This document shows positions 4,829 through 40,903 of a stretch of DNA of 40,903 bases, piece after piece (position 1 is the first letter of the stretch; each line of letters starts with the position of its first letter). The notes beneath the pieces were generated by a model. That model did not search any database. It worked only from the letters and a program-made list of their open reading frames with translations, and was not told where the DNA came from. The stretch covers positions 1 to 40,903 of IMG/VR virus record IMGVR_UViG_3300013103_000022; one strand, written 5' to 3'. The position numbers and the translations under genes were made by a program. This DNA is from a virus.

Positions 4829-4861
4829 ATACCTATATTATTATAGGGTACATAGATAGTC
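4829..4861 (+). promoter_or_regulatory. Promoter-like motif (family copy 2)
   Basis: TACCTATATTATTATAGGG followed by TACATAGATAGTC, one of the best matches to the window-wide consensus, 34 bases upstream of the GTG start at 4895. Confidence 0.65.
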
Positions 4862-4894
4862 TGTGTATCAACCAATTTCATATAAGGAGAAAAC

Positions 4895-7266: not shown

Positions 7267-8031
7267 TTATAAAAATAAATTTATTGCTAACGTAGAACTA
7301 CTACCTACATTATCTTCAATCTTAAGTCCTGTATCAGTAAACGTACTTCTAGCGTAATAATCATTTAATCCTAATTGACCTTGATTATTATTACCAGTAG
7401 ATAATAAACTACCATCTTCTAATTGTACTTGTGTAAAATTTCCATAAGATATTACATCAACAACGTTTTCTAAATTATTTATTAAAACACTAGTTGAAAT
7501 ATCATCAGTATGTCCAACTCCTAATTGACCGTCTAAATTAAAACCACATACATATAATTTCTTATTATTTTTAATATAAAAAAAATTATTACCACTACTA
7601 GTAAATATCTTACTTACGTCTCTGATACCTGAATCAATAAACAATTGTTCATATCCACCATTATTAGGATTTCCACCGTGTACAGCACCAGCAAACCAAA
7701 CACTACCATCATTCTTTAAGAGTATTGAAAAACGTTTTCCTCCAAAGGTTCCAATGTCCTTAACATCACTAACATTCAGAACCGTTGTGAAAGTGTTTCT
7801 ATCATAACTATCACCTAAACCTAATTGACCACCATAATTTTCACCAGTTGTCATTATAGTACCATCATTCTTTAAGAGTATTGAAAACTCACCAGCACTT
7901 AAAACTTTTTTAACGTTTTGAATATCAACAACTTGAAACTCATTGTTAACTACATCATTGTGACCCAAACCTAGTTGACCAAAGTCGTTATTACCACATG
8001 CAATTAAAGTATTATTATGTATATATAACAT
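7267..8031 (-). CDS. RCC1-repeat (beta-propeller) protein without leader domain, 254 aa
   Basis: The protein consists of RCC1-type repeats from its first residues: ACGNNDFGQLGLG, TTGENYGGQLGLGD, VCGFNLDGQLGVG and STGNNNQGQLGLN are the blade signatures, roughly every 50 residues. It lacks the CxxC leader domain of its neighbours. It starts 12 bases after the stop of the 208-aa gene upstream, in the same frame, with its own AAAGGATAATAAG leader. The two together (about 466 codons) match the length of one intact paralogue, so they may be a split gene. RCC1 propellers are protein-interaction scaffolds; in this cluster a surface or fibre role is likely but unproven. Confidence 0.8.
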   Translation of the reverse strand: MLYIHNNTLIACGNNDFGQLGLGHNDVVNNEFQVVDIQNVKKVLSAGEFSILLKNDGTIMTTGENYGGQLGLGDSYDRNTFTTVLNVSDVKDIGTFGGKRFSILLKNDGSVWFAGAVHGGNPNNGGYEQLFIDSGIRDVSKIFTSSGNNFFYIKNNKKLYVCGFNLDGQLGVGHTDDISTSVLINNLENVVDVISYGNFTQVQLEDGSLLSTGNNNQGQLGLNDYYARSTFTDTGLKIEDNVGSSSTLAINLFL

Positions 8032-8043
8032 CTTATTATCCTT

Positions 8044-8670
8044 TTAATTATATTCTGTAAATGTATTAGTAAAATTTTCACCAGCAGCAAGTTTTACACC
8101 ATCATTTCTAATTATAATTACACTAAACCTATCAGTAAATACATCTTTTACATTACCTATACCTGTATCAGTAAACGTATTTCTATTATCACTATCACCA
8201 AGTCCTAATTGACCGTCGTCATTACATCCAGTAGCCCATAATGTATTGTCGTTTTTAACTATAAAAACACATAAGTGTCCAATATAAATTCTTTTAACGT
8301 CAGTAATTATTAATTCTTCAAACGCACTTCTTTCATAGGTATCACCTAGTCCTAATTCACCATTACTATTATTTCCTGCTACAAATATTTTTCCTAGCGT
8401 GTTAATATAATAATTAAACATATTATTACCAGCATGATTTCTAATTATTTTAGGCATAGTTTCACCCTCTACATCAGCATTAATTACACCAACTGGTAAC
8501 CAATCATCATTAGAGTTTTTTCTTAATACATTATTCTCGTCTACATGATAATCATCATGATTAATCATTAATTCTAACGCTGTTGATCTATCTTCAGCAC
8601 TTAACATATTTAATAAGTGTTTACTATTTTCACATGTTTTACATAATTTTACTTTATTTACAAGTGTCAT
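8044..8670 (-). CDS. RCC1-repeat protein with CxxC leader domain, 208 aa
   Basis: The leader domain at residues 1-70 (MTLVNKVKLCKTCENSKHLL, then a helical part and NDDWLPVGVIN) is shared with the proteins at 8958 and, more distantly, 10508. It is followed by about two and a half RCC1 repeats (VAGNNSNGELGLGD, ATGCNDDGQLGLGD, and a final incomplete AAGENFTNTF). It is short for this cluster and ends where another blade would begin. The next gene resumes the repeats in the same frame after one TAA. The leader may anchor the protein to the virion, which is inferred only from its conservation across paralogues. The ribosome site is AAAAGGG. Confidence 0.8.
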   Translation of the reverse strand: MTLVNKVKLCKTCENSKHLLNMLSAEDRSTALELMINHDDYHVDENNVLRKNSNDDWLPVGVINADVEGETMPKIIRNHAGNNMFNYYINTLGKIFVAGNNSNGELGLGDTYERSAFEELIITDVKRIYIGHLCVFIVKNDNTLWATGCNDDGQLGLGDSDNRNTFTDTGIGNVKDVFTDRFSVIIIRNDGVKLAAGENFTNTFTEYN

Positions 8671-8708
8671 ATTATTACCCTTTTTTTTATTTACTCATTA
8701 AAAGATAT

Positions 8709-8733
8709 ATACAGTAGTCTTAGACTACTGTAT
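8709..8733. terminator. Hairpin terminator, CAGTAGTC family
   Basis: ATACAGTAGTC / GACTACTGTAT perfect 11-bp stem, almost identical to 10478-10502. It follows the decayed RCC1 stub at 8739 and carries over the same flanking bases as the intact gene at 10508, so it was duplicated with that gene. Confidence 0.75.
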
Positions 8734-8738
8734 GTGTT

Positions 8739-8946
8739 TTATAAATCCAGTTCAATACTTCTAACAGTTACATCATTGTTTTATATTTATTTCTTTTTAT
8801 AATATACCATCGGTTAAATAGTATTTTTCATATACATCAACCATTACATTTAAAATATCTTACAGTTCGCCACCTTCAAACGTGTTTAATAAATACTTAG
8901 TATATTAATACACATCACACTCTACTACATTTTCTAAAATTGTCAT
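8739..8946 (-). pseudogene. Decayed RCC1 gene stub (paralogue of 10508-12157)
   Basis: Reading the minus strand from ATG at 8946 gives MTILENVVECDVY, stop, YTKYLLNTFEGGEL, stop, DILNVMVDVYEKYYLTDG. This aligns with the N-terminus of the 549-aa protein (MTILEKVAECDTC, LLNMSEGDEL, DVLNAMIDVDEKYHLTDD). After a large internal deletion the sequence resumes as NDVTVRSIELDL and a stop, identical to the last 12 residues of that protein, followed by the same hairpin. About 1.45 kb of repeats is missing and there are two in-frame stops. It also fills most of the 8671-8957 gap. Confidence 0.85.
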
Positions 8947-8957
8947 ACTAAATTACA

Positions 8958-10433
8958 CTATGCGATGGTTATTGAATAACCAGGCGTTGGTGTTTTTAAT
9001 AATAAATTAGATTCTGTTAATGAAACTATAGGGTCACGATGACCTAGTCCTAATTCACCATTAGGATTATACCCACATACTAATGTACTACCATCTTCTT
9101 TAATTATAAAAGTACTCATTCCATTAGAAATTACATGTTTAACATTCGTAATACCAGTAGCTGTAAGAGTTGAAATATAATCATCCTCGGTTACATGTCC
9201 AATACTTAAAAGCCCGTTATAACCACATGACCATAAACTAGAATCTTTCATCAATGCTAGTGTTCCAGCAGCCGTTAAATAAACTTTTTTTACATTTAAA
9301 TTATCATAATGAACAAGTTCTTTAAAAGTGTAAACAATGTCATCATCATCACCAACTCCTAATGAACCATAATCATTATATCCAGTAGCAAAAATTCTAT
9401 TTTCAGAAGTTACTAACAATGATATTCCATTAGCCGTTAAAATTGTTGCTACATCATCAACGTTAATTAAAGTTGGAGATGCTATAAATTCTTGGACACC
9501 TGAACCCAGTTGACCAGACTCGTTATTACCCCATGTGTATAATTTACCATCATTACATAATGCTAAAATAGCCCATTCACACGAGCTAATTAATTTTACA
9601 TTTGAAATATTTACTTTGGTAAATACATTAACATCATCATAATCACCTAGACCTAATTGACCATTGTCATTACGTCCAGTAGAATATACATCACCGTTTT
9701 TTAAAACAGCTATAGATGTACCATCTGCATAGTAAACTTCTTTAACGTTACTTAATCCAAGAAATTCTTCTTCCATTACATTAACATTATGACCCAAGCC
9801 TAATTGACCATCTGAATTTACACCAATCCCCCACAGCGTATTATCATTTTTAATTAATAATAATGTTGGTTCAGAAACTCCATTACCACTAATATCTTTT
9901 ACATCATCAAATGTATTAACAATAATTAAACCATCTTCTTCATCGTCAAATACGTATTTTTTACATACTCCATCATTATATAAAACTAAAACACCCTCAT
10001 AAAACGGACATATTCTTTTTACATCATCAAAGCTACTTATTTCAAGATAGTCTAAATCAATGTCCCGATGGGCAGGTATGCTATTACCAACCTCGTTTAA
10101 TAGTAATTGACCATACTCGTTATCACCGGATGCAATTATTCTACCATCTATAGTTCTTAAAAACGTTGAATCAGTATCTTGTAAATCAACGCGTTCACCA
10201 AGTCTTTTACCATAAATTTCTGAACTTTCTCCATCAGTATTAATTACACCAACTGGTAACCAGTCATCATTAGATGCCATTAATAATGTATTATTTTCAT
10301 CAACACCGTGTACGTTACTTACATTTATAAGATAGTCTAATATCTCACCACGATCGTCATTTGATGACATTGATAACAGCGTTTTCATGTTATTACACGT
10401 TTTACATATTTTAGCTTTTTCTATTAAATTCAT
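8958..10433 (-). CDS. RCC1-repeat protein with CxxC leader domain, 491 aa
   Basis: The leader domain at 1-70 (MNLIEKAKICKTCNNMKTLL, SNDDWLPVGVIN) precedes about seven RCC1 blades with signatures such as GVNSDGQLGLGH, GRNDNGQLGLGD, WGNNESGQLGSG, GYNDYGSLGVGD and CGYNPNGELGLGH. Seven blades is the classical RCC1 propeller size. No catalytic motif, signal peptide or membrane segment is visible. The start ATG has AAAAGGT. It is the B-type partner of an ancestral B-A gene pair; the A-type partner downstream survives only as the stub at 8739. A fibre or host-binding role is plausible from its position among virion-like genes. Confidence 0.85.
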   Translation of the reverse strand: MNLIEKAKICKTCNNMKTLLSMSSNDDRGEILDYLINVSNVHGVDENNTLLMASNDDWLPVGVINTDGESSEIYGKRLGERVDLQDTDSTFLRTIDGRIIASGDNEYGQLLLNEVGNSIPAHRDIDLDYLEISSFDDVKRICPFYEGVLVLYNDGVCKKYVFDDEEDGLIIVNTFDDVKDISGNGVSEPTLLLIKNDNTLWGIGVNSDGQLGLGHNVNVMEEEFLGLSNVKEVYYADGTSIAVLKNGDVYSTGRNDNGQLGLGDYDDVNVFTKVNISNVKLISSCEWAILALCNDGKLYTWGNNESGQLGSGVQEFIASPTLINVDDVATILTANGISLLVTSENRIFATGYNDYGSLGVGDDDDIVYTFKELVHYDNLNVKKVYLTAAGTLALMKDSSLWSCGYNGLLSIGHVTEDDYISTLTATGITNVKHVISNGMSTFIIKEDGSTLVCGYNPNGELGLGHRDPIVSLTESNLLLKTPTPGYSITIA

Positions 10434-10477
10434 AATTTTATTACCTTTTATTATTTATTTTATTCATTAAAAGATAT

Positions 10478-10502
10478 ATACAGTAGTCTAAGACTACTGT
10501 AT
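10478..10502. terminator. Hairpin terminator, CAGTAGTC family
   Basis: ATACAGTAGTCT / AGACTACTGTAT stem directly after the stop of the 549-aa RCC1 gene (10508, minus), with the same flanks as 8709-8733. Confidence 0.75.
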
Positions 10503-10507
10503 GTGTT

Positions 10508-12157
10508 TTATAAATCCAGTTCAATACTTCTAACAGTTACATCATTGTTTTTGATATATTTACCAGTACTAGTAAAACTGGTTACTTCATCAAAATTACT
10601 AACACCACACTGACCATTATAGTTCGCACCGGCAGTATGTAGTAATCTATCTTTTATTAAAAACGTAGTATTAAAACAACTAATTACTGTATCATTACTA
10701 GACACGTTAAAACCAGTATGAGTTAAAGTCGGATTTTTAGTACTAATAGCATTAATACCTAACTCACCATCATCATCACCACCAGCAGATAATAAATCAC
10801 CATCCTCGTTAATAACGTATATTGCCGACGGAGTTACAAAAAAATCGCTCACATTTTCCAATGGATGTTTAATTAAATTAACACTTTCATCTAAGTTACC
10901 CAATCCTAGTTGACCAAATTTATTATAACCAGCTACCCAAAAATCATTTTCATTAGTAATAAAATATGTAGTAAACATACCTGGACAAAATTTTTTCATG
11001 TTTTTAACGTTTAATCCACTATTTATAAATGTTTTAACATAATCATCATTGTTGTTAAGATCTACATTACTAACACCAGTGATACCACCGGCATTAATTC
11101 CTGATACATGAATACTACCATCATCTGTTATTATATACACCACGGCTGGCATGGTTAATGACGTTTTTATTTCTTTAATATTATCAATATTAATTTTAAC
11201 ATACGATAAAACATCATCACAATTACCTGTTCCTAACCCTCCTGCTTGATTCCACCCTGTAACCCATACAGTATTATCATTCTTAATAATTATACTAACA
11301 GGATTCATTATGACATCTTTATTAAAAAATAAAGTTTTCACATTAGACATTCCAGTATAGGTAAATGTATTTCTACTAACAGTATCACCTAGTCCTAAAG
11401 CACCATAATCATTAAATCCTACACTCCAAACTGTATCATCGTTTTTTAATACAGTAGTACTTCCCGTGTTAGTAATAACTTCCTTTACATTAGACATTCC
11501 AGTATCAGTAAGTACATTTCTATTTACAACATCACCTAATCCCAGTTGACCGGATTGGTTATAACCACATGTCCAAATAGTACCGTCATTTTTTAAAATA
11601 ATAATAACACCATAATTTAATATCACTTCTTTAACATTAGATACAATTAGTTCTGTAAACTCGATAACATTATCACTATGACCTAAACCCAATTCACCAT
11701 AAACATTTTTACCAGTGACATAAATTCTATTATCATTAGTAACAACTAATGTAGAATGACTAATGTCAAACATTACATTTTTAACATTAGTAATACCGGT
11801 GTCAGTATACTCATTTCTATCAACAGTATCACCTAATCCCAGTTCACCATAACCGTTGGACCCTACTGCAAGTAATTTATCATCTTCGTCTATGATAAAT
11901 GAATATGGTATTCCACCTTTAACAAATATACTATCTTGACAATTACCGGGAGTGACGTTATCGGTAACGTTACATAATTTACACCAAGTTTCATATTTAT
12001 TTCTCTTATATAACGTATCGTCGGTCAAATGATATTTTTCATCTACATCAATCATTGCATTTAAAACATCTTGCAATTCGTCACCCTCAGACATGTTTAA
12101 TAAATGTTTAGCACCTTGACATGTATCACACTCTGCTACTTTTTCTAAAATTGTCAC
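10508..12157 (-). CDS. RCC1-repeat protein, 549 aa (largest of the cluster)
   Basis: The N-terminal domain at 1-75 (MTILEKVAECDTCQGAKHLL, then YHLTDDTLYKRN and WCKLCNVTDN) carries two CxxC pairs and is a diverged form of the leader domain in the 491-aa and 208-aa paralogues. About nine RCC1 blades follow; the clearest are GSNGYGELGLGD, GKNVYGELGLGH, GYNQSGQLGLGD, GFNDYGALGLGD and GYNKFGQLGLGN. Later blades are more worn (GINAGGITGVS, GANYNGQCGVS). The start codon is GTG with AAAAGGA upstream. Upstream lies a decayed B-type gene stub; the hairpin at 10478 ends the unit. The function is inferred only from repeats and context. Confidence 0.85.
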   Translation of the reverse strand: MTILEKVAECDTCQGAKHLLNMSEGDELQDVLNAMIDVDEKYHLTDDTLYKRNKYETWCKLCNVTDNVTPGNCQDSIFVKGGIPYSFIIDEDDKLLAVGSNGYGELGLGDTVDRNEYTDTGITNVKNVMFDISHSTLVVTNDNRIYVTGKNVYGELGLGHSDNVIEFTELIVSNVKEVILNYGVIIILKNDGTIWTCGYNQSGQLGLGDVVNRNVLTDTGMSNVKEVITNTGSTTVLKNDDTVWSVGFNDYGALGLGDTVSRNTFTYTGMSNVKTLFFNKDVIMNPVSIIIKNDNTVWVTGWNQAGGLGTGNCDDVLSYVKINIDNIKEIKTSLTMPAVVYIITDDGSIHVSGINAGGITGVSNVDLNNNDDYVKTFINSGLNVKNMKKFCPGMFTTYFITNENDFWVAGYNKFGQLGLGNLDESVNLIKHPLENVSDFFVTPSAIYVINEDGDLLSAGGDDDGELGINAISTKNPTLTHTGFNVSSNDTVISCFNTTFLIKDRLLHTAGANYNGQCGVSNFDEVTSFTSTGKYIKNNDVTVRSIELDL

Positions 12158-14032: not shown

Positions 14033-14302
14033 ATGATTACAATACATTACGATTTTACAAACGGAACTGAAGTTAGTTATTTAGAAGGATTAAAATTAGA
14101 AGATGATTTTACAACTTGCTGTACAAACTTCTTTTCCTTTAATAATGATAAAGATGTAATCGTTATTAAAAAGAATGGTGACTATATTATTAAAAATGAT
14201 TTACTTAAATTTAATAATGGTTACATTTTAAAAGAAATGCGTATAACTCATAACATAGAAAACATGTTAAACACTGGAAGCTTTACATGGAAAAATGAAT
14301 AG
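14033..14302 (+). CDS. Hypothetical protein, 89 aa
   Basis: Not recognised. It is a small acidic-basic mixed protein with short beta-prone stretches (MITIHYDFTNGTEV, KDVIVIKKNGDYII). The ATG is preceded by AAAGGAAAAA. A single-gene unit runs from the palindromic promoter at 13982 to the hairpin at 14307, which it shares with the convergent recJ gene. It is likely an early or middle gene by promoter type; no function can be assigned. Confidence 0.7.
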   Translation: MITIHYDFTNGTEVSYLEGLKLEDDFTTCCTNFFSFNNDKDVIVIKKNGDYIIKNDLLKFNNGYILKEMRITHNIENMLNTGSFTWKNE

Positions 14303-15802: not shown

Positions 15803-16335
15803 CATTACATTCCAATATACTCGTTGAGGTTATCTCTCTGTATAATGCGATTGGTTTATTTATAATACTACCTGTAAGTAGTATAACCAATCAGCTATGA
15901 CTCTCATCATAGAATAGACTATATCTTCATCTACAGCATTATCCGTTTAGATGTTCTCCACTTCGATTTAAGGGATTATTACCCACTCACTTGAGCCCTA
16001 CTCCCAGCTACGGGATAGTCGTTGAACACATCTCATATCTAAAATAATAGACTTAGAGACTTCGCTGCGTCGGTTGTCCAATTCTAATAGGTTTTTACTA
16101 TTCTCACTACTTCCATTAATGGAGTGAGTATCATACTATATTTCTATATATGAGTAGTACTATTAGACTCTAAGGAGTTTCCCGCAATTCAAAGAAATCG
16201 ATTAGATATTTCTATTCTAATCGGACATACATGTTCTTATGTTATAATTTCTATATTTAAAATTATCATAATATTACCTTTTCATTAACAACTTAATAAA
16301 AAAATAATAATCACTTTCTAAGCACATGCTTGTTT
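15803..16335 (-). ncRNA. Group I intron in recJ (533 nt, no ORF)
   Basis: Minus-strand landmarks are AATTGCGGGAAAC (P4), CCGACGCAGCGAAG, GTTCAACGACTATCCC (P7 5'), AGGGCTCAAGTGAGTGGGT and ATATAGTCT (P7 3', pairing TAGTC with GACTA). P3 can be drawn TTCTT with GAGAA, and P8 begins CATC/GATG. The 5' exon ends GAT and the intron ends in G before GGAGTT. A stop lies six codons into the intron (KQACA, stop). Its 3' region, with the long ATTGGTTA...TAAACCAAT stem and GAGATAACCTCAACG, is almost the same as that of the nrdA intron. Confidence 0.9.
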
Positions 16336-17837: not shown

Positions 17838-17949
17838 CATATTCCAATAAACAGGAACGAGACATAAGTTAAATGTAATAAGAAAGTATTTTACTAGAAC
17901 ATATAATATTAAAGAAGGTGAAATTGTAGAGTATGGTTTAGATAAGTAA
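17838..17949 (+). pseudogene. Probable 3' remnant of a decayed gene
   Basis: A frame with an early stop reads VIFQ, stop, TGTRHKLNVIRKYF and then TYNIKEGEIVEYGLDK before TAA at 17947-17949, where a strong hairpin begins. The protein-like tail placed directly before a terminator, with no start codon or ribosome site, suggests the end of a lost gene. The family is unknown. The rest of the 17730-18067 gap shows no gene apart from this, the hairpin and the promoter at 18002. Confidence 0.4.
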
Positions 17950-17978
17950 TTTACAGTAACTTTAAAGTTACTGTAAAT
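17949..17978 (+). terminator. Perfect palindromic hairpin
   Basis: Stem half ATTTACAGTAACTTT, fully self-complementary over 30 bases, followed by ATTTATTAAT. It lies right after the stop of the remnant frame. Confidence 0.65.
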
Positions 17979-18001
17979 ATTTATTAATCTCACCATGAAT
18001 G

Positions 18002-18042
18002 CATGCATATATTATCACAGAGTAGAAGAGATGGTCTACCAA
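18002..18042 (+). promoter_or_regulatory. Promoter-like motif (family copy, variant downstream part)
   Basis: TGCATATATTATCACAGAG then TAGAAGAGATGGTCTACC. It shares its downstream AGAAGAGATGGTCTAC with 18654 instead of the TAGATAGTC form. The first sigma-4-like gene starts at 18068. Confidence 0.6.
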
Positions 18043-18067
18043 TTATATAATGCCATAGGAGGTAAAG

Positions 18068-18550
18068 ATGTATAAAGCTAAAAGTATAGAAGATATGAAA
18101 CTGGGATTTGAAAAAATCATTAATGAGTTAAATAGATTAGAAAAGTCTTACTCTTTAGACTTAACAGATCTAAGGAGTAAGACAGAATTGACCATCAGAC
18201 GCTTAAACGCGACTGAAGCAGTCATGATAGAGAGTGGAATTCATTACGATGGGGGTTGTAGTCTAGCGCATATAAGTAAAATACTGGGTATTTCCTCCAG
18301 AGAACGCGTGAGACAAATAGAATCTAAAGCTATAAAAGAGTTAAAGACTCCAAAAAACTCCATAAAACTGAAAAAATATTTATATAACAACAATTCAGTT
18401 GCCACTAACTACTGTGATATTAATGATTTTGAGATAGAGTTGTACGATGACTCTACCTCAAGATGTGAGCTTGAATCACTGTTATATGTAAATGTAATGG
18501 GAGGGTCACCGTATGATGCGGTGAAGCATGGAAGGATTAAAAAATGTTAA
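18068..18550 (+). CDS. Sigma-70 region-4-like HTH protein A1, 160 aa
   Basis: Residues about 66-93 (LAHISKILGISSRERVRQIE then SKAIKELK) match sigma-70 region 4.2, the part that contacts the -35 element and the RNA polymerase beta flap. Regions 2 and 3 are absent, so it is not a complete sigma factor. The N-terminus is a charged helical coil and the C-terminus (ELYDDSTSRCELE, LYVNVMGGSPYDAVKHGRI) is shared almost unchanged with the 18721 gene, 170 bases downstream. The ribosome site is AGGAGGT. It could be a transcription co-regulator for host or phage polymerase. Anti-sigma-like competition is an alternative. Confidence 0.8.
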   Translation: MYKAKSIEDMKLGFEKIINELNRLEKSYSLDLTDLRSKTELTIRRLNATEAVMIESGIHYDGGCSLAHISKILGISSRERVRQIESKAIKELKTPKNSIKLKKYLYNNNSVATNYCDINDFEIELYDDSTSRCELESLLYVNVMGGSPYDAVKHGRIKKC

Positions 18551-18611
18551 ACTAAAAATAAGTAGGAAACTAAGAAACTACTTTAAAGGTGATAAAGGGT
18601 ATACTAGTTAA
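18549..18611 (+). pseudogene. Remnant of a type-C sigma-4-like gene tail
   Basis: Directly after the A1 stop, the frame KLKISRKLRNYFKGDKGYTS and a stop repeats the end of the 111-aa protein (19559-19894) codon for codon, but without its beginning. It shows that an A-B-C operon was duplicated and that the first copy lost B and most of C. Confidence 0.85.
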
Positions 18612-18638
18612 TTCTAGTATGCCTGGTATTTTTTTTTT
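18600..18638 (+). terminator. Hairpin with T-tract
   Basis: TATACTAG / CTAGTATG-type stem with a 6-base loop, then GCCTGGTA and about eleven T. It is a classical intrinsic terminator after the A1 unit. Confidence 0.75.
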
Positions 18639-18653
18639 AATCTTACCATTAGT

Positions 18654-18692
18654 ATATACCTATATAATTACAGTGTAGAAGAGATGGTCTAC
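18654..18692 (+). promoter_or_regulatory. Promoter-like motif (family copy)
   Basis: TATACCTATATAATTACAG followed by TGTAGAAGAGATGGTCTAC, about 30 bases upstream of the A2 gene's start. Same family as 19936, with the variant AGAAGAGATGGTC tail. Confidence 0.6.
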
Positions 18693-18720
18693 TAATGATG
18701 TAATACTGTAGGAGGTAAAG

Positions 18721-19203
18721 ATGTATAGAGTTATGAGCGTGGAAGATATGAGACTGGGATTTGAAAAAATTCTAGTTGAGTTAGACAGACTAGAGGAATC
18801 TTACTCCTTAGATTTAGCAGATCTAAAGAGTAAGACAGAATTGACCGTTCAGCGTTTAAACACGACTGAAACAGCCATGGTAGAGGAAGGAACCTGTAAT
18901 GATACAGGGTTCAACTTGTCCTACGTGGGTAAACTTTTGGGCGGAGCATCCAGGGAGAGAATTCGACAGATAGAGGCTTCTGCCATTAAGAAGTTACGGA
19001 ATCCGATGACAAGACTGGTCTTAAGAAAATACTGGAAGGTTGACGACCTCCCGGTCATTAACTATTTTGACGACAGTCAAATTGAAATAGAGTTGTACGA
19101 TGACTCTATTTCAAGATGTGAGCTTGAACCACTCCTATATGTAAATGTAATGGGTGGTTCCCCGTACGATGCTGTGAAGCATGGAAGGATTGAAAGATGG
19201 TAA
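18721..19203 (+). CDS. Sigma-70 region-4-like HTH protein A2, 160 aa
   Basis: Paralogue of A1 with the same length and layout. An N-terminal coil precedes the HTH at about 66-93 (LSYVGKLLGGASRERIRQIE), and the C-terminal module ELYDDSISRCELEPLLYVN is followed by GGSPYDAVKHGRIERW. The HTH carries GGAS in place of GISS, so the turn may differ. The last codons overlap the start of the next gene by 7 bases (GAAAGATGGTAAG), so A2 and B are translationally coupled. The gene is first in the intact A-B-C operon. Several strong inverted repeats lie in the coding sequence (for example 18799-18835). Confidence 0.8.
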   Translation: MYRVMSVEDMRLGFEKILVELDRLEESYSLDLADLKSKTELTVQRLNTTETAMVEEGTCNDTGFNLSYVGKLLGGASRERIRQIEASAIKKLRNPMTRLVLRKYWKVDDLPVINYFDDSQIEIELYDDSISRCELEPLLYVNVMGGSPYDAVKHGRIERW

Positions 19204-19559
19204 GTAAAATAGTAAATAAAGAAGAGTTAGATGGACTTCTTTTAGATTTAAAGAATACTAGAACGAGTATTCTTTTGTTAAAAAAGAAGAAGGGGTTAAA
19301 CCTCGAGGAGAAGGAAGAATTACAGAACTTCCTACTACGTATTAACGGTGATATTCAAATCGTCGTTAATAAAAAAATCCCGGAGGGAGACGGGAATAAA
19401 AGTCAAACTCTTGAATCGATAGGGGACATTCTCGGAGTATCTAGGGAGAGAGTTCGACAGATAGAGGCTACAGGACTAAAAAAACTTTTAACTCCTAAAA
19501 CAGGGAGAGCTTTGAGACCATACCTTGGTATGAACATGTTCAACAGGGGTGGTCAGTAA
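19197..19559 (+). CDS. Sigma-70 region-4-like HTH protein B, 120 aa
   Basis: A lysine-rich coil (SILLLKKKKGLNLEEKEELQ) is followed at residues 71-97 by the closest region-4.2 match of the group, TLESIGDILGVSRERVRQIE, then ATGLKKLLTP. It is too short to be a full sigma factor. It overlaps A2 at its start by 7 bases and C at its end (TAATG, 1 base). It probably acts at promoters by binding RNA polymerase or -35-like DNA. Perfect stems such as AAGAATACT/AGTATTCTT (19251-19274) lie in the coding region. Confidence 0.8.
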   Translation: MVSKIVNKEELDGLLLDLKNTRTSILLLKKKKGLNLEEKEELQNFLLRINGDIQIVVNKKIPEGDGNKSQTLESIGDILGVSRERVRQIEATGLKKLLTPKTGRALRPYLGMNMFNRGGQ

Positions 19560-19894
19560 TGAAAAGAAAACTAACCCTATTTGAATTGAAAGACGAGTTG
19601 TCTCTCACCATAAAGCAAATAAAAGATTTGCTAAACAAGTGTATGTTAGATACTTGTTTTATCGAGGAATTAAAGATTATTGAAAATAATTCTACTCGCG
19701 ACTTACGTGTAGTAGAGAATGAAATTTACAATATAAACACTAATGAGAAAACAATGGTTACTAAAAAAATAGCCGATAAACTCGGTATTAGTAAAGAAAA
19801 AGTTTTGACACTAGAAGGAAGTGCTACCCGTAAACTAAAAATAAGTAGGAAACTAAGAAACTACTTTAAAGGTGATAAAGGGTATACTAGTTAA
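19559..19894 (+). CDS. Degenerate region-4-like HTH protein C, 111 aa
   Basis: This is the third gene of the coupled operon, starting in the TAATG overlap with B. It has the same general layout as B (coil, then HTH near residues 69-93), but the recognition helix reads ISKEKVLTLEGSATRKLK instead of SRERVRQIE. It is therefore likely altered in DNA or polymerase contact. Its final codons are repeated at 18549-18611 as a remnant. It ends at the hairpin at 19883. It may be a partner that dimerises with A or B; this is inferred from coupling alone. Confidence 0.75.
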   Translation: MKRKLTLFELKDELSLTIKQIKDLLNKCMLDTCFIEELKIIENNSTRDLRVVENEIYNINTNEKTMVTKKIADKLGISKEKVLTLEGSATRKLKISRKLRNYFKGDKGYTS

Positions 19895-19960
19895 TTCTAG
19901 TATGCCTGGTGGTTTTTTTTTAATCTTACCATTAGCATATACCTATATAATTACAGTGTA
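19832..19960 (+). repeat. Direct repeat, copy 2 (about 129 bp)
   Basis: Second copy of the 18549-18677 segment: the end of gene C, the hairpin, the T-tract and the promoter up to CAGTGTA. Confidence 0.85.
19883..19922 (+). terminator. Hairpin with T-tract
   Basis: TATACTAG / CTAGTAT stem, then GCCTGGTGG and a run of nine T. It ends the A2-B-C operon. Confidence 0.75.
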
Positions 19961-19972
19961 TATAGATAGTTA
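19936..19972 (+). promoter_or_regulatory. Promoter-like motif (family copy)
   Basis: CATATACCTATATAATTACAG then TGTATATAGATAGT. The upstream half equals 18654 and the downstream half equals the TAGATAGT type. The gene at 20008 follows. Confidence 0.65.
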
Positions 19973-20007
19973 TATATTCATACATATAAATACTTAGGAG
20001 GTATAAT

Positions 20008-20292
20008 ATGATATACGTTATAGATTTTACTGGTGGAAAACATACTACCAATCAACAAGTGGCTAACTTGTTGAAAAACGAGTCCACTTATCAACCCATT
20101 GAAATAGATGGTGAAATGGGCTTCGTGGACGAATTAAATTTCACTGAACTTCTAAAGAAGGTAAGTGATAGCGAAGATGATGAACTAGTCATCTTCGTAG
20201 AAAGCGTTGATGGCCCTAGTTTTAATAGAAGCACGTTTGAGTGGATTAAAAACTCACTAAGCGTAAAATGCTTCGTAGCTAATAACATTTGA
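20008..20292 (+). CDS. Hypothetical protein, 94 aa
   Basis: Not recognised. It is a small acidic protein (VSDSEDDELVIFVESVDG) with alternating beta/alpha character. A strong ribosome site AGGAGGT precedes the ATG. The coding sequence is packed with perfect inverted repeats, such as CAACAAGT/ACTTGTTG (20053-20073) and CGAAGATGA/TCATCTTCG (20172-20197). It is followed by two hairpins in a row. The family promoter and size suggest an early gene. The acidity could hint at DNA mimicry or binding of a basic partner, but this is speculation. Confidence 0.75.
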   Translation: MIYVIDFTGGKHTTNQQVANLLKNESTYQPIEIDGEMGFVDELNFTELLKKVSDSEDDELVIFVESVDGPSFNRSTFEWIKNSLSVKCFVANNI

Positions 20293-22714: not shown

Positions 22715-23104
22715 CCATGTTAAGCGTTGAGGTTATCTCTCTTTAACATGCGATTGGTTTATTTATAACATCTCAGGTATGATGTAACCAATCAGCTGCA
22801 TATCTCTATACAGACTAGACTATATCTTCATCCTTAACTTAATAGTAGGATGTTCTCTATTTCGATTTAAGGGAATACACCCACTCACTTGAGCCCTACT
22901 CTCCACGTGGAGATAGTCGTTGAACGTTCTACATATGAAATATTCACTTAGTAGCTTCGCTGCTGATTTTCTCTATTCATACTTTTTCAAACTATCATAT
23001 ATTCATTTCTGATATATTGTAGTAGTATAACTTAACAAGACGTTCCAGCAATTAAAAGAATATTACCTCATATATTACTACATGAGCAGGCTTATATTTT
23101 ATTA
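22715..23104 (-). ncRNA. Group I intron in nrdA (390 nt, no ORF)
   Basis: This is the smallest complete intron of the set. Minus-strand landmarks are AATTGCTGGAACG (P4, differing from the GCGGG of the others), ATCAGCAGCGAAG (compensating change: GCTG pairs CAGC), GTTCAACGACTATC (P7 5'), AGGGCTCAAGTGAGTGGGT and GATATAGTCT (P7 3'). The exon before it ends GGT, a TAA is the first intron codon, and the intron ends in G before AATGAA. The 3' ATTGGTTA...TAAACCAAT stem matches the recJ intron. Confidence 0.9.
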
Positions 23105-24091: not shown

Positions 24092-24122
24092 CATACTTAT
24101 ATCATTACGTTGAGTACATTGT
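24092..24122 (+). promoter_or_regulatory. Promoter-like motif (diverged family copy)
   Basis: CATACTTATATCATTACGTT then GAGTACATTG, resembling the family motif (TACMTATATCATTAYAGGGTA), 35-60 bases upstream of the ankyrin-like gene and phuZ. Confidence 0.45.
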
Positions 24123-24154
24123 ACAAGTACTTAAAAAAAATAAAAGGATCGTAC

Positions 24155-24760
24155 ATGGGAAAATTTGATTTAGTGGAACACATCGAAAGCTTAACCATTA
24201 AGGGTAAACTTGGTGAAATGAAAAAGTTATTCAAAGAGAAGCATTTAATTTGGCTAGATTTTTCAGATAATATAATGGTAACTGCTATTATACATAATGA
24301 AATGAAAATTGTAAATTTCTTATTAGAAAGAAATTTTGTTCACGATGAAGTTATTAAAGAAGCTATGATGACATCGGTAAGAAATAATAATATACCAGCG
24401 TTTAGAATGTTAATGGTTAGTTTCATGAGAAATGACCTAAAAACAAGTATGTTTGAAATAGAGTTAATGAGAGAAGCAGTAAACTGTAATAACTATTATA
24501 TTCTACAGGAAATGCTTATACTAGACTTCCTTACGGAGTACGGATCCATATCCATCTTAGACATGGCTATTGAATATGAACATTTTCCGTTAGTGAGACT
24601 ATTAATAAATCATGGTGCATCATCTCTTAAGAGTAAAAATAAACTACTCAAGAAGTTCCGTATGCATCATGATAAATACAAATCAGATAAGGTGAAAAGA
24701 ACTATGAGATTTATGATAAATCATTTTTCTAACCTCGTTGATATGAAAACTGGAGATTAA
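24155..24760 (+). CDS. Ankyrin-repeat-like protein, 201 aa
   Basis: Helix-turn-helix pairs of ankyrin type are visible. IMVTAIIHNEMKIVNFLLER, then MMTSVRNNNIPAFRMLM and EAVNCNNYYILQEML precede the clearest, LDMAIEYEHFPLVRLLINHG. The protein is probably a binding scaffold. ATG at 24155 with AAAAGGATC is preferred over an upstream TTG at 24110, which has no ribosome site. It ends 2 bases before phuZ, so the two are co-translated. This pairing suggests a role linked to the phage spindle or to positioning, though this is an inference. The C-terminal 35 residues are basic. Confidence 0.7.
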   Translation: MGKFDLVEHIESLTIKGKLGEMKKLFKEKHLIWLDFSDNIMVTAIIHNEMKIVNFLLERNFVHDEVIKEAMMTSVRNNNIPAFRMLMVSFMRNDLKTSMFEIELMREAVNCNNYYILQEMLILDFLTEYGSISILDMAIEYEHFPLVRLLINHGASSLKSKNKLLKKFRMHHDKYKSDKVKRTMRFMINHFSNLVDMKTGD

Positions 24761-25098: not shown

Positions 25099-26770
25099 AA
25101 ACTTGTAGCATAACGCTACATGCCTGTTATGACAGTGATGTCATAATAATCGTCTCCTAATTGCGGGAATTCCCTTAGAGTCATATAGTACTACTCATAT
25201 ATAGAAATATAGTATGATACCCATGGAGTAATGTTTCCAATGGGCATAGTAAAAACCTATATGAATTGGGCAACCGACGCAGCGAAGTACCTTAAACCAC
25301 GAGAGTGATCTACTGTATAGTAGAGTGTATGTGTTCAACGATCAACCGCTAACCACGGTGTAGGGCTCAAGTGAGTGGGTGTTAATCCCTTAAATCGAAA
25401 CGGAGACTATCTTATTGAAAAAAATAATTATTACATTTATCGGGTAAATGTAATAGAAAGGAAAAAATGATTTGGAAAAAAGTAAAAGATACCAGTGATT
25501 ATTTAATTAGTAATAACGGTTCTATAAAAAGAATATCTACAGGTAACATATTAAAACCTGGCATCGATAAATACGGATACCCTAGATTAACATTAATTAA
25601 TACCAAAGGTAAAAAAATATATAGAACAATTCATAAAATGGTAGCTATGAGTTTTAAAGATAATCCAAATAATTTACCGCAAGTGAATCATGAGGATGGT
25701 GATAAATTTAATAATAACGAAAGTAATTTAAAATGGTGCACTAGTAAGTATAATATAATACACTCTTACGAAACTGGATTAAATAAAAATACTACACCTG
25801 TTTTACTATTAAACACTGATACCGGTGAAGAAACTAGATTTAGATCTATAAAAGAGTTATCAGGATTCCTTAACATATTCTCAAGTGTCCTAATGCCATT
25901 AATTTTAAATTCTAGTAAAAATAAAATTCTAAATAAATACGTGATTACTATAAACGATTTGAGTTTAATATCAAATACATCGAATACTAAAAATTTTGGT
26001 AGAACTGTTTATGTTTTAGATTTAATTAATAATAAACACGTTAAGTATGATAGTATCTTATTAACAGCTTTCTTCACAGGACTCAGAAATCTAGGTAATA
26101 TTAAAAAACATGGTACAATTAATAAAATAGGTTACATCGTATCTTTTAAACCTATTTTAAATAACACGGTATTAAATAAAAATGAACTTAATAAGCTAAG
26201 AAAGCTTAGAAAGATATATATAAATACACCATATGTAAAAAGATCTGATAAATACTTCTTAATAGATTATTACTCTAAAAATGAAAAAGTATTCGATAGT
26301 TTAACAAAATTAACTAACTGGATAAATGATAACAATAGAATGAAATTAAAAATCTCATCTGATATAATATCATATAGAATAAGTAATTCTAAAAAGAAAA
26401 ATAAGTCGGCGGTGGCATTAGGATATGGTGTTAAAAATTCTGATTTAGAATGGACTACATATTCCGAAGAATTCATATTAAATAGTGTGTATGATCATAG
26501 ATTTTTTAAAAGAGCTTATAAACTCATCGATGACGATAACAACGAGATGATAATTTTTGGCAATCCTAAACTTTGCTTTGTTCTAGGAATTAAATTGACT
26601 AAAAAATTACTAAATGCTAACTTAAAAGAAATTAAAAAACTAATTAATAATCCCGATATATTATTAATTAGATTAAACAATAAGATAAAGATATGATCTA
26701 GTCTTTACAGAAATGTAAAGAAGTTCATAAACGAACTGATATATGTAAACGACATATATTGAATATAACG
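25099..26770 (+). ncRNA. Group I intron in phuZ, with homing endonuclease gene in P8
   Basis: Plus-strand landmarks are AATTGCGGGAATTCCC (P4), CCGACGCAGCGAAG, GTTCAACGATCAACC (P7 5'), AGGGCTCAAGTGAGTGGGT and TATGATCTAG (P7 3'). P3 is GTCTCC with GGAGAC. The exon ends GGT and the intron ends in G before AGTGGT. An early stop lies after KLVA. The start AAACTTGTAGCAT resembles the terL intron start AAACTGATAGCAT. The two endonuclease-bearing introns are closest to each other and share the P7 pair GATCA/TGATC, unlike the other three. Confidence 0.9.
25467..26696 (+). CDS. NUMOD4/HNH homing endonuclease (409 aa) of the phuZ intron
   Basis: Paralogue of the terL-intron enzyme along its full length. 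NUMOD4-like N-terminus, then HNH at about 55-92 (TIHKMVAMSF, VNHEDGDKFNNN, SNLKWCT). Four NUMOD1-like repeats follow at about 112-136 (LLNTDTGEETRFRSI), 181-207 (VLDLINNKHVKYDSI), 263-286 (LIDYYSKNEKVFDSL) and 351-375 (LIDDDNNEMIIFGN), each spaced 70-90 residues. They probably read a long DNA target. The ribosome site is AAAGGAAAAA before the ATG. The stop TGA lies in the P7 3' strand of the host intron, as in terL. Confidence 0.88.
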   Translation: MIWKKVKDTSDYLISNNGSIKRISTGNILKPGIDKYGYPRLTLINTKGKKIYRTIHKMVAMSFKDNPNNLPQVNHEDGDKFNNNESNLKWCTSKYNIIHSYETGLNKNTTPVLLLNTDTGEETRFRSIKELSGFLNIFSSVLMPLILNSSKNKILNKYVITINDLSLISNTSNTKNFGRTVYVLDLINNKHVKYDSILLTAFFTGLRNLGNIKKHGTINKIGYIVSFKPILNNTVLNKNELNKLRKLRKIYINTPYVKRSDKYFLIDYYSKNEKVFDSLTKLTNWINDNNRMKLKISSDIISYRISNSKKKNKSAVALGYGVKNSDLEWTTYSEEFILNSVYDHRFFKRAYKLIDDDNNEMIIFGNPKLCFVLGIKLTKKLLNANLKEIKKLINNPDILLIRLNNKIKI

Positions 26771-30581: not shown

Positions 30582-30613
30582 TACATATATCATTATAGGG
30601 TATGTAGATAGTC
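30582..30613 (+). promoter_or_regulatory. Promoter-like motif (best family match)
   Basis: TACATATATCATTATAGGG then TATGTAGATAGTC, matching 4829-4861 at most positions. The DHH phosphoesterase gene starts 72 bases downstream. Confidence 0.65.
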
Positions 30614-30684
30614 AACATATTAATATAGACGTAGTGCATGTAATGATGCAGCCAAACATATGGTGAAATAACAAAGGAGACATT

Positions 30685-34651: not shown

Positions 34652-36451
34652 ATGGCTATACATACAACAGATACTGGCGGTATTAACACCAGTGATAATG
34701 TAGAAATAGAAAACTTAGGAGCCAATAAGGCAAAATCAGAATTTAAGCAGTTAAACTTTGGCATGGGCGGTGGATTCATGTCTAAAAAGACTATGGGTGC
34801 AGATGAGGTAGCTTTTGCTAAAGCCTTGAGTAAAATTCTTACTAAAGCTAATGATGGCATCGGCGTACATATTTTTAGTAGATCTAGTTTTGAAATGCTA
34901 GCATATGCTAACATTGTAATTACTTTACGAATGGATAACATTATTACCTATTCAAATATTCTATTAGAGGGTACTGGTAACTGTGATATGACTGTTAATA
35001 CTTTCATGGAAACTATTAACGCTCAAGAACGTCCATATGTTACAACGGACGCGATTGATGACGAGTTAGATAAAGTAGTTCGTGGTCAACTACAAGCTAA
35101 TTATCCAGAAGTTAAAGAAGAAGATTTCATATCTATGCAAGGTATTGTAATTCCAGCACAAGTAGATATTGAAGATGAAAATTTAATTCACGAAGTAGCT
35201 GTAGAAACTTATAACTCATGTCTATTAGAACTAGGATTAATTTCCGGTGAATTAAAAGATATTGATTTAAATGCATCACTATCGACGGTATCCGGATTTG
35301 TTAAATTGCGTCAATTAACTTTAACACAACCAAACATCAATGCACTTGGACAACAAACTAAGGTAGACTGGGCTGTTGAATTATCTAGTACTAATAAAAC
35401 ATCTCAAACTTCTCCTAATACAGTTGGTAGTGAAACTTCTATTACTACAGCGTTTGGTAGAATTAATTTTTTACCAGAAGAATATTCTGAAAACGTTATT
35501 GGAATGCCTCCGGTTATTAAAACTGGATTACATCCACAAATCGTAGTTACTAACTTTGAACAGTCAATGCCATCACTAGGATATACATTACTATCACTGG
35601 CTACAACAGCAGTAATGGCTAGAGATGTAAACTGGATTAAACCAATCCTTTCAAATAATGAAACATCAATTGACATTGGAGTTTTGAATAAACTTACAAA
35701 TATTGAAAATTCTGAAAAGGGTGGTAGTGCTATAAAAGTAAATAATGTCAAACTAAGTCAAGAAGAAAGAGTTTCTCTAATAATGAAATTCGCTTCATTA
35801 GCACCAGTTATCTCTTTAGATACTATTGCATTCGGTGAAAACGCTTCTGTATTGTCAACATTCTCTAGTGCTGCAAAAGGTTATAATGCTGCAAGTCATG
35901 AGATTATTGAAACACTAGCTGAGATGACAAATGGATCATTCCCAGCAAACTTCCCTATTAGTGAAATTTTTGCTAGTGAACCACTGGTAATTCCGGATGG
36001 TACTTGGATTGATAAAAATGGTACACAGAGAACTATTGATGACATTGATACTGCGTATATTCTTTCTGTAGGTGGAACAACATCTAGACAACTAGCTGGT
36101 GATTACATTTACAGTGAACTAGGAATGAGTAATAACGCATTTATCGACAGAGTAATGCTATTGCAAAAGCTTGGCATTAATGCTAAAATAACTGGTAGAA
36201 AAATGAGAATGACATTTAGTCATAACTTCATTGACACTATGCTAAACGCATTTACATCATGTGGACTTAACCCTAGATTTGAAGATAACCAAATCTTCAA
36301 TAGACCAACTGGACTTGGATTCACTAATGGTGCGTTTGATAGAGCTGGTGTTACTAACGTTAATGCATTCCAACCATATGTTGTTCAGCAGGGCTATGGT
36401 GGTCAGTTCGGCGGTAACCACTTTGGTATGAATCATAACCAAAGAAGATAA
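34652..36451 (+). CDS. Large probably abundant protein, 599 aa (structural or shell candidate)
   Basis: The family is not securely recognised. Flexible ends flank a folded middle: a Gly-rich N-terminal part (LNFGMGGGFMSKKTM, residues about 33-48) and a Gly/Asn/Gln-rich C-terminal tail (QQGYGGQFGGNHFGMNHNQRR split across the last 24 residues). The core is alpha/beta, acidic, with no membrane or catalytic motif. A long leader, strong ribosome site, single-gene unit and strong terminators on both sides suggest high expression. Candidates are a major virion protein or, given PhuZ nearby, a phage-nucleus shell protein, which also has about 600 residues with flexible termini. Neither is proven here. 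Confidence 0.65.
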   Translation: MAIHTTDTGGINTSDNVEIENLGANKAKSEFKQLNFGMGGGFMSKKTMGADEVAFAKALSKILTKANDGIGVHIFSRSSFEMLAYANIVITLRMDNIITYSNILLEGTGNCDMTVNTFMETINAQERPYVTTDAIDDELDKVVRGQLQANYPEVKEEDFISMQGIVIPAQVDIEDENLIHEVAVETYNSCLLELGLISGELKDIDLNASLSTVSGFVKLRQLTLTQPNINALGQQTKVDWAVELSSTNKTSQTSPNTVGSETSITTAFGRINFLPEEYSENVIGMPPVIKTGLHPQIVVTNFEQSMPSLGYTLLSLATTAVMARDVNWIKPILSNNETSIDIGVLNKLTNIENSEKGGSAIKVNNVKLSQEERVSLIMKFASLAPVISLDTIAFGENASVLSTFSSAAKGYNAASHEIIETLAEMTNGSFPANFPISEIFASEPLVIPDGTWIDKNGTQRTIDDIDTAYILSVGGTTSRQLAGDYIYSELGMSNNAFIDRVMLLQKLGINAKITGRKMRMTFSHNFIDTMLNAFTSCGLNPRFEDNQIFNRPTGLGFTNGAFDRAGVTNVNAFQPYVVQQGYGGQFGGNHFGMNHNQRR

Positions 36452-39311: not shown

Positions 39312-40436
39312 ATGGCAATACGACAAAGTTTATATAGCTTAGATGCATATTTTAACAGTACGATAGGAGATAAGATTATTTTAAATAATCTATCATATTG
39401 GGAAAAAGAGGATAAAGCGTTAGTAGAAAAAACCATGCAATCGGTTTATGATAAAGATACTATTACAATGGTACCAAAGTGTGCCTGTGGTAAAACTGAG
39501 GGAATGTTCGCAAAGGGTAAAACTTGTGATTATTGTGGATCTAAAGTAATGTCAGTATTCGGTGAAAAGGATCCGTTACTATGGTTTAGATCAATAGAAG
39601 GAGCTGGTAAATTCATATCTCCACAATTTTATACAATGATATCTAGAACAATAAGTACTAAAATAGATATCTTAAGATGGATTGGTGATAGTAACTATAA
39701 TCCACCATTAGGTGGTACTGAAGTTATAGTACAGGGATTAATGCAGATACAAGGATTTTCTAGGAGTTATCTTTGGTTGACAAAAAATCTAGAAAAGGTT
39801 TTAATTACTTTAAGCAATATGCCGAAATTCAAGAGTAAGACAACTAGTAAAGATCAGACATTTAGAGAATTAATATTAATGTTTAGAAAAGATAAGAAAG
39901 CAATATTTTCAGATTACTTACCGCTATTAAACAGACGGATGTTTGTAATGGAAAATACTTCTATGGGTAGATATACTAATATTGGTATAGCTGATGCCTT
40001 TGATGCCGTGCTGTATTTTATTAAACATTGTACCGATACTAGTCAAATAAAAAAAGAAAGAACCATGGCTAGAACAACTGCAAAGATGGCTGAACTTTAT
40101 GAAGAACATGTTAAAACATATTTATCGGCAAAAGAAGGTATATTACGTAAACATATGTATGGAACAAGATCACACTTTACAGCTAGAGCTGTAATAGCTT
40201 CAATTGCTGGTCCACATAAATACGATCAAGTTCAATTACCATGGGGAATTGGTGTTACGTTATTTAGACCACACTTACTTAATTTATTGAGTAAAATGGG
40301 ATTTAAGTATAAAGAAATAAATTCTAAGTTATTTAGAGCGGTACAACATTTTGATCAAGATGTATCAGATTGTTTAGACGAGTTAATTTCCAGTAGTAAG
40401 TACGAAAAAGGTATAGCTATTGGGATTCAAAGGAAT
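39312..40436 (+). CDS. Multisubunit RNA polymerase beta-prime-like N-terminal chain, exon 1
   Basis: These are the first 375 residues of a phage-encoded RNA polymerase beta-prime fragment. A zinc ribbon PKCACG...TCDYCG uses C57, C59, C72 and C75. GTRSHFTARAVIASIAGPHKYDQVQLP corresponds (in two pieces) to the conserved beta-prime region before the active centre, and LPWGIGVTLFRPHLLNLL to its LPxxMALxLFxPF motif. The exon ends GIAIGIQRN, the beginning of the NRxPxLHR motif, about 50 residues before the catalytic NADFDGD expected in the next exon. ATG at 39312 (after AAAGGAAAAA) is preferred over an upstream ATG at 39273. It would direct transcription of phage genes independently of host sigma. 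Confidence 0.85.
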
Positions 40437-40903
40437 TAAATAGGGTTCCATTCAGTAGAAATACTGTCTAAAAACCAGGTGAATTGCGGGAACTCCCTAA
40501 AGATTATAGATACTACTTATAACTAGAAATAGATTATAATACTCACTCCATTAATGGAAGCAGTGAGAATAGTAAAAACTCTATAATATGAACAATGGGT
40601 AACCGTCGCAGCCAAGCTCCTAAGTTTACACTTAAATATGGAGAAGGTTCAACGACTAGCGAAAGGATAATTATTGTAGTAATACGGTAATGAAAACTGA
40701 GTAGTGTAGGGCTCAAGTGAGTGGGTAATAATCCCTTAAATCGAAGTGCCTGGATCTAAGTGATCTAATGTAAAAACTGTGACAAGTTAAAATAAATGAA
40801 CTTGTTATACGATCTGGTAAGAATGTCACAGTTACCATCGTTAAATAGATTAAACATTAGATCATATGAATATGAGATAGTCTAGCCGACCAATTGGTCC
40901 TTC
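40437..40903 (+). ncRNA. Group I intron in the RNA polymerase gene (3' end outside window)
   Basis: The first intron codon is TAA. Landmarks are GAATTGCGGGAACTCCC (P4), ACCGTCGCAGCCAAGC (P4/P6 side, closest to the textbook form), GTTCAACGACTAGCG (P7 5'), AGGGCTCAAGTGAGTGGGT and GAGATAGTCTAGCC (P7 3'). P3 is CCAGG with CCTGG. P8 is a long stem, GATCTAATGT with ACATTAGATC, and contains AACTGTGAC/GTCACAGTT inside. No ORF is present in P8. The window ends in the P9 region (GACCAATTGGTCC). Confidence 0.88.

Follow-up and report, generated by a model that had tools for sequence, protein, structure and literature searches.

Sigma-type functions have been described outside complete sigma factors in both phages and bacteria. 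In phage T4, gp33 and gp55 form a split sigma that resembles the locus studied here in providing partial sigma function from a phage gene, and gp33 binds the flap but does not read the -35 element (PMC7408454). In Bacillus subtilis, the split sigma factor SigO-RsoA has region 4 as a separate polypeptide (PMC8103513). Jumbo phages that carry their own RNA polymerase (RNAP) also encode sigma-like functions, in the form of PhiKZ gp68 and AR9 gp226, polymerase subunits of 460-520 aa that lack an HTH contact and any evident similarity to sigma in sequence (PMC7618050, PMC9209446). Sigma homologues mark those jumbo phages that lack an RNAP, and the RNAP-carrying ones have been described as without recognizable sigma homologues (PMC7598289).

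The closest described proteins are small phage proteins that stand alone. The stand-alone phage Sigma70_r4 proteins of loci L112, L124, L126, L153 and L158 (64-140 aa) share with the proteins reported here their small size, an HTH near RpoD region 4.2, the absence of region 2 and the absence of a detectable region 4.1. Each of these is a single gene, whereas the locus described here holds three to four adjacent, coupled and recombining paralogues behind early-type promoters in a phage that encodes an RNAP. Phages commonly encode stand-alone 4.2-HTH proteins, so this kind of protein is already known, and what is new is the variant formed by the array in its setting.

The phage and its type

The window, that is, the whole stretch of DNA analysed, is a 40.9-kb virus record (IMGVR_UViG_3300013103_000022, positions 1-40,903) with a G+C content of 29%. 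Judged by its gene content, it is a piece of a distant PhiKZ-type, nucleus-forming jumbo phage relative, because it encodes chimallin, PhuZ, a PhiKZ-type DNA polymerase and a fragment of the nvRNAP beta′ subunit; with this last as its multisubunit RNAP, the window holds the features by which a Chimalliviridae-like phage is recognized. The chimallin (nuclear shell) gene, which marks the phage type, lies at 34652-36451 on the + strand (PF25677, 8e-12; phrog_4795, 1.4e-26), the PhuZ tubulin is encoded as two pieces (phrog_4733), and the DNA polymerase (phrog_2927, 4.3e-189) matches 278 phage records, with about 31-33% identity among the matches listed. The phage RNAP fragment reported in the initial annotation was confirmed at 39312-40439 (+) as a PhiKZ gp55-like N-terminal beta′ subunit of the nvRNAP (match to PHIKZ055, E 1.7e-38), which passes into a group I intron where the contig ends. 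The visible part amounts to about 41 kb, and the genomes of several relatives exceed 200 kb.

An assembly chimera is unlikely, since genes lying over 10 kb from the array in either direction share its promoter and leader features. The bacterial sequences nearest to protein B gave no host signal, their matches being scattered over phyla. A PADLOC search for defence and other known systems returned weak matches only, to an MzaA sigma domain and to mad1.

Layout of the four-gene array

Four adjacent ORFs occupy positions 18068-19894 of the + strand, as initially annotated, and Sigma70_r4 was found in all of them. A1 (18068-18550, 160 aa) consists of N-terminal helices, an HTH with the sequence SRERVRQIE (about aa 65-106) and a 40-aa C-terminal tail. 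Its paralogue A2 (18721-19203, 160 aa), with 61% identity, has the HTH SRERIRQIE. B (19197-19559, 120 aa) has the most canonical region 4.2 HTH of the array and structure matches to RpoD/SigA region 4, and C (19559-19894, 111 aa) has a degraded HTH, SKEKVLTLE. The net charge of the proteins varies widely, from -6 in A2 to +7 in B.

A1 is a transcription unit of its own, with a separate leader and terminator. A terminator-like hairpin (18597-18624, +; z -5.5) follows A1, and a nearly identical one lies at the end of C (19880-19907, +). Translational coupling of A2-B-C, which had been proposed from the sequence, is borne out by overlaps of 7 nt between A2 and B (ATGGTAA) and 1 nt between B and C (TAATG). 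A stoichiometric complex of the three proteins is possible, although coupling is by itself insufficient to show one. The 3′ end of the array adjoins g20008 (20008-20292, +), a 94-aa acidic ORF for which no family was found; it has its own early-promoter-like motif (19941-19961) and is perhaps a member of the array's early cluster.

A region 4.2 HTH without the rest of sigma

Matches to the Pfam Sigma70_r4 model (PF04545) had E-values of 1.7e-6 (A1), 1.7e-5 (A2), 7.6e-10 (B) and 1.7e-4 (C); against a gathering cut-off of 24.1, A1 (27.8), A2 (24.6) and B (38.6) pass and C (21.5) fails. To avoid circularity, we also used an HMM trained on 73 bacterial sigma sequences alone, with the window excluded. 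This model scored B at 57.9 bits, A1 at 46.6, A2 at 40.9 and C at 20.1, the best of 730-970 scored shuffles for each protein reaching 12.1, 9.6, 6.9 and 9.9 bits, respectively. When the model was split, the signal of the array proteins was found to sit in region 4.2. The top NCBIfam match of B was RpoD (9.4e-12), and B and C are similar to each other at E 1e-7.

The description of these proteins as region 4-like therefore needs to be divided: it holds for region 4.2, given the Sigma70_r4 matches, and fails for region 4.1, which was undetectable in all four. A 4.1-only HMM gave at most 2.2 bits in A1, A2, B and C, inside the range of shuffles; with the same model, nearly all full-length phage sigma factors reach 9-47 bits. 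Because region 4.1 is undetectable, we regard A1-C as 4.2-HTH proteins and not as whole sigma-4 domains. Some whole-model alignments begin at aa 26-39 (in B, the RpoD-type region 4 homology starts from aa 37-39), and a degenerate region 4.1, kept in position or structure without a sequence signal, is possible. Small phage proteins both without a 4.1 signal (L112, L124, L126, L139, L153 and L158) and with one (L106, L113, L166 and L168) were present in our comparison, and the array proteins group with the former.

Region 2 (Sigma70_r2, PF04542) had no match at E<=10 anywhere in the window, in a search that detected the controls. The proposal that none of the four proteins has a region 2 thus stands, and extends to the entire window. 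Unlike RpoD/SigA, the array proteins lack a signal for region 2 or region 4.1 and have additional N-terminal helices, and the 40-aa tail of A1 and A2, for which no homologue was found, is absent from RpoD/SigA region 4. They also differ from gp68 and gp226 in being short and in showing clear sigma sequence similarity. The reading of the array as sigma-derived DNA-binding proteins that lack the remaining sigma regions, encoded by a phage with its own RNAP, is supported.

Residues R584, E585, R588 and Q589 of Escherichia coli RpoD read the -35 element. A1 (RERVRQIE), A2 (RERIRQIE) and B (RERVRQIE) retain all the residues aligned with these four positions, and so resemble RpoD/SigA region 4 in both the sequence of the HTH and its -35-reading residues; C (KEKVLTLE) has K, E, L and T. 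The 4.2 HTH with -35-reading residues that belongs to a sigma-70 factor is therefore found in A1, A2 and B and not in C. This corrects the earlier view that the HTH decays stepwise with an altered A2, as the helix is intact in three proteins and lost only in C. A1 and A2 have one additional residue immediately before the helix, so their -35 specificity may be lost.

AlphaFold2 models, made as single chains from shallow alignments, were of moderate confidence. The A2 model (mean pLDDT 71) scored best at residues 11-20 and in the HTH, with predicted helices 66-72 and 78-93 within the best-scored part, and the C model (mean pLDDT 79) scored best at the first helix and the HTH. Foldseek searches with the A2 and C models gave no significant match (best E 0.39); among these non-significant matches, the three top ones of A2 were sigma factors, and those of C were sigma region 4 mixed with other HTH proteins.

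Duplication and exchange within the array

Three repeats record the history of the locus. A 267-nt repeat (17973-18239 and 18626-18892, 79% identity) covers the leader and N-terminal part of A, a 148-nt repeat (18403-18550 and 19056-19203, 83%) covers the C-terminal part of A, and a 130-nt copy (18548-18677 and 19831-19960, 98%) places the last codons of C, the terminator and the spacer behind A1, all on the + strand. The simplest account of this arrangement is that an A-B-C unit was duplicated in tandem, and that the first copy then lost B and most of C.

Between the two repeats within A, A1 and A2 diverge strongly: pS reaches about 1.0 in codons 58-112, compared with 0.39 in the N-terminal and 0.35 in the C-terminal part, and across codons 52-118 the two genes differ in third-position G+C (A1 0.31, A2 0.55). 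This divergence makes it most likely that the HTH segment was swapped in either A1 or A2. The DNA of the A2 recognition helix (18942-18978, +) is 92% identical over 37 nt to that of B (19433-19469), and all eight shared residues are codon-identical, the rare codons AGG and CGA included. The probability of drawing these codons from the codon usage of the window is about 1e-5, and the same helix codons agree at one of seven positions between A1 and A2 and at one of eight between A1 and B. On this codon evidence, the helix sequence has moved between A2 and B.

The third-position G+C of the array genes (0.28-0.43 versus about 0.14-0.22 in core genes) is in line with acquisition of the array later than the core genes. 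We rejected a shared origin for the full lengths of A, B and C: homology is shown for the HTH half only, and similarity between the N-terminal parts of A, B and C was not significant (z 0.6-1.6).

Early-promoter-like motifs and leaders

Scanning with the sequence that precedes A2 revealed a 21-nt motif with the core TATATNATYAYAGNGTA in seven copies in the window, all of them on the + strand, intergenic and 5′ of + strand genes (g4895, a small ORF at 14033, A1, A2, g20008, g28031 and a DHH protein at 30685). These seven sites scored 21-26.5 bits, the next best site 14.5 bits and shuffles at most 16.2 bits. The copies at 18005-18025 and 18658-18678 (both +) each lie 43 nt 5′ of their genes, A1 and A2-B-C, respectively. 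The motif matches the predicted promoters of phages N1M2 and OBP, which end KATATTATYWAAGTGWA and KATATTATYWWADTG and are taken as early (PMC7058600, Table 2). The N1M2 consensus, used without fitting, found seven sites with at most two mismatches, against 1.3 expected, and six of these seven were motif sites.

Where jumbo phages have two RNAPs, early motifs of this type mark the promoters used by the virion RNAP (PMC7598289). Because each follows a copy of a published-type early-promoter motif, A1 and A2-B-C are predicted to be expressed early. The window-derived motif showed no clear enrichment over shuffles in six related phages, as expected if it is phage-specific; the early motif varies between phages (PMC7598289).

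The A1 and A2 leaders contain an identical 18-nt inverted repeat just 3′ of the promoter motif. An A-specific operator was considered for this repeat and rejected: the leader hairpin of which it is part also occurs, with changed stems, in front of g4895, the DHH gene and g20008. The repeat has two exact matches in viral contigs, by our estimate about what chance would give for an 18-mer in such a collection. Hairpins lie directly 3′ of five of the seven motifs (4842-4872, 18016-18046, 18669-18699, 19952-19982 and 30594-30624, all +), with loops that resemble one another (AGATAGT or GAGATGG) and stems that vary yet pair (GTAGA/TCTAC, TATGT/ACATA, TATAT/ATATA and TACAT/GTGTA), and may represent a common 5′ leader element of early mRNAs. 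A loop-less perfect 30-nt palindrome, ATTTACAGTAACTTT/AAAGTTACTGTAAAT, lies 5′ of A1 at 17949-17978.

Distribution

Close homologues of A2, B, the A1/A2 pair or the 40-aa tail were not found in viral contigs, nor was one of the A1/A2 pair in genome contigs, and the DNA of the array had no match among 50,697 phage records. None of the four proteins was found in the related contigs in which core genes of the window occur. Sigma70_r4 was above cut-off in none of 50 related records (several exceed 200 kb and many are fragments, which makes the absence provisional), compared with four matches in the window in the same search, and this agrees with the published description of RNAP-carrying jumbo phages (PMC7598289). 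No other array of small HTH proteins was seen in about 160 loci with similar HTHs.

Proposed function of the array

We favour DNA-binding regulators because the DNA-reading part of sigma is kept and the polymerase-holding parts, by sequence, are not; A1, A2, B and C are probably early regulators of this kind and not sigma factors. Since all four residues with which sigma-70 reads TTGAC are kept, -35-like elements of host promoters would be the likeliest targets, an assignment that we make tentatively and rate as appreciably short of probable. A reader of TTGAC would point to host DNA, as a conserved -35 element is absent from the nvRNAP promoters of those jumbo phages that have been studied (PMC7618050) and the polymerase has a sigma-like subunit (PMC7618050, PMC9209446). 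Taken whole, early regulators built on an RpoD-type 4.2 HTH and reading host -35-like DNA form our best explanation, to which we give a little less than even confidence.

Under this explanation, a nucleus-forming jumbo phage would have acquired the region 4.2 HTH of a housekeeping (RpoD-type) sigma factor, and the virion RNAP would make A1 and A2-B-C at the start of infection. The retained helix of A1, A2 and B would bind DNA, and these three proteins would act in the cytoplasm, before or during shielding of the phage genome, where they may compete with the host sigma factor, or redirect it, at -35-like elements. C, which lacks the -35-reading residues, might work with A2 and B as a partner or modulate them. 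The constant ends and swapped HTHs of A1 and A2 suggest a shared partner surface with a changed DNA specificity. A bolder version, in which a phage that can do without host RNAP deploys from the outset of infection a recombining set of sigma-4.2 decoys, assembled as A2-B-C, that occupy or re-specify host -35 elements, with HTH swaps between constant ends tuning the promoters affected, seems to us unlikely. The promoter motifs, the duplication history and the exchange of helices are more informative on function than the coupling of the genes. The helix exchange between paralogues would amount to a natural experiment in which DNA specificity is altered and partner surfaces are retained.

The proteins might instead regulate the phage's own genes, for instance as auto-repressors of early operons, with the sigma-type HTH serving as an ordinary DNA-binding domain. 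We consider this rather unlikely, although stand-alone 4.2-HTH proteins without region 4.1 are present in many phage contigs and the identical 18-nt repeats of the A1 and A2 leaders would suit it; the repeat belongs to a leader hairpin that is found before other genes as well. The DNA of this phage type sits in a vesicle or nucleus, so own-gene regulators would need to be imported. Mimicry of sigma region 4 on the beta flap of the host RNAP, by which host transcription would be shut off or redirected, is improbable. Small phage proteins with this function exist, as in T4 gp33 (PMC7408454), and the RpoD-type homology that some alignments of B show from aa 37-39 onwards is in its favour; however, region 4.1 gives at most 2.2 bits in all four proteins, against at least 9 in nearly all full-length phage sigmas, and gp33 lacks DNA reading, the very part that is conserved in the array, where a flap binder is unrecognizable.

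We think it very improbable that the proteins are halves of a split sigma that has its region 2 partner at another site in the phage genome or in the host. SigO-RsoA provides a precedent (PMC8103513) and no more than about 41 kb of the genome can be seen, but unlike SigO-RsoA the locus has several region 4 genes and no region 2 partner in the window. Four region 4 genes for a single partner would be odd, there is no 4.1 signal, and none of the 50 related records has Sigma70_r4 above the cut-off. Least credible, and extremely improbable, is a role as accessory or alternative promoter-recognition subunits of the nvRNAP, for example at the middle promoters of PhiKZ-like phages, which are unexplained and for which an alternative nvRNAP form has been proposed (PMC7598289). 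In PhiKZ-like nvRNAPs, the sigma-like subunit gp68 already places a domain in the region 4 position, and subunits of this type occupy that place through a different, non-HTH contact (PMC7618050); the array genes were not found in the 50 related records, those checked encoding the same polymerase subunit. The suggestion that the array serves the phage polymerase is therefore unlikely, and binding to a polymerase or blocking of region 4 contacts has no support so far, the flap-binding region 4.1 being without a sequence signal. As judged from the proteins' sequences, polymerase-directed readings of the array appear weakened.

If the preferred explanation, early regulators that read host -35-like DNA, is right, a clustered early set in an RNAP-encoding phage would mean that a transcriptionally self-sufficient phage still invests in host promoter DNA, and the array would offer a compact system for studying the treatment of the host transcriptome by such phages. 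Should the proteins prove to be simply ordinary HTH regulators, the array remains an uncommon accessory island.

Other features of the window

Group I introns above the Rfam cut-off interrupt the genes of a RecJ-like exonuclease (15895-16240, -) and the ribonucleotide reductase large subunit (22796-23095, -). A third (40417-40901, +), 3′ of the nvRNAP beta′ piece, scored just under the cut-off (46 versus 50 bits). The PhuZ tubulin gene is split by a NUMOD4 ORF (25467-26696, +) and the terminase large-subunit gene by an HNH/NUMOD1 ORF (699-1934, -), both of them homing-endonuclease insertions into core genes. An ankyrin-repeat protein is encoded just 5′ of PhuZ (24110-24760, +), with a third-position G+C of 0.30, above that of the core genes. 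Four neighbouring ORFs at 7267-12157 (-) encode RCC1-like repeat proteins, which are uncommon in phages; the two that we tested both had strong Pfam WD40_RLD/RCC1 matches (1e-50 or better), and the position of the ORFs suggests that their products are perhaps associated with the virion.
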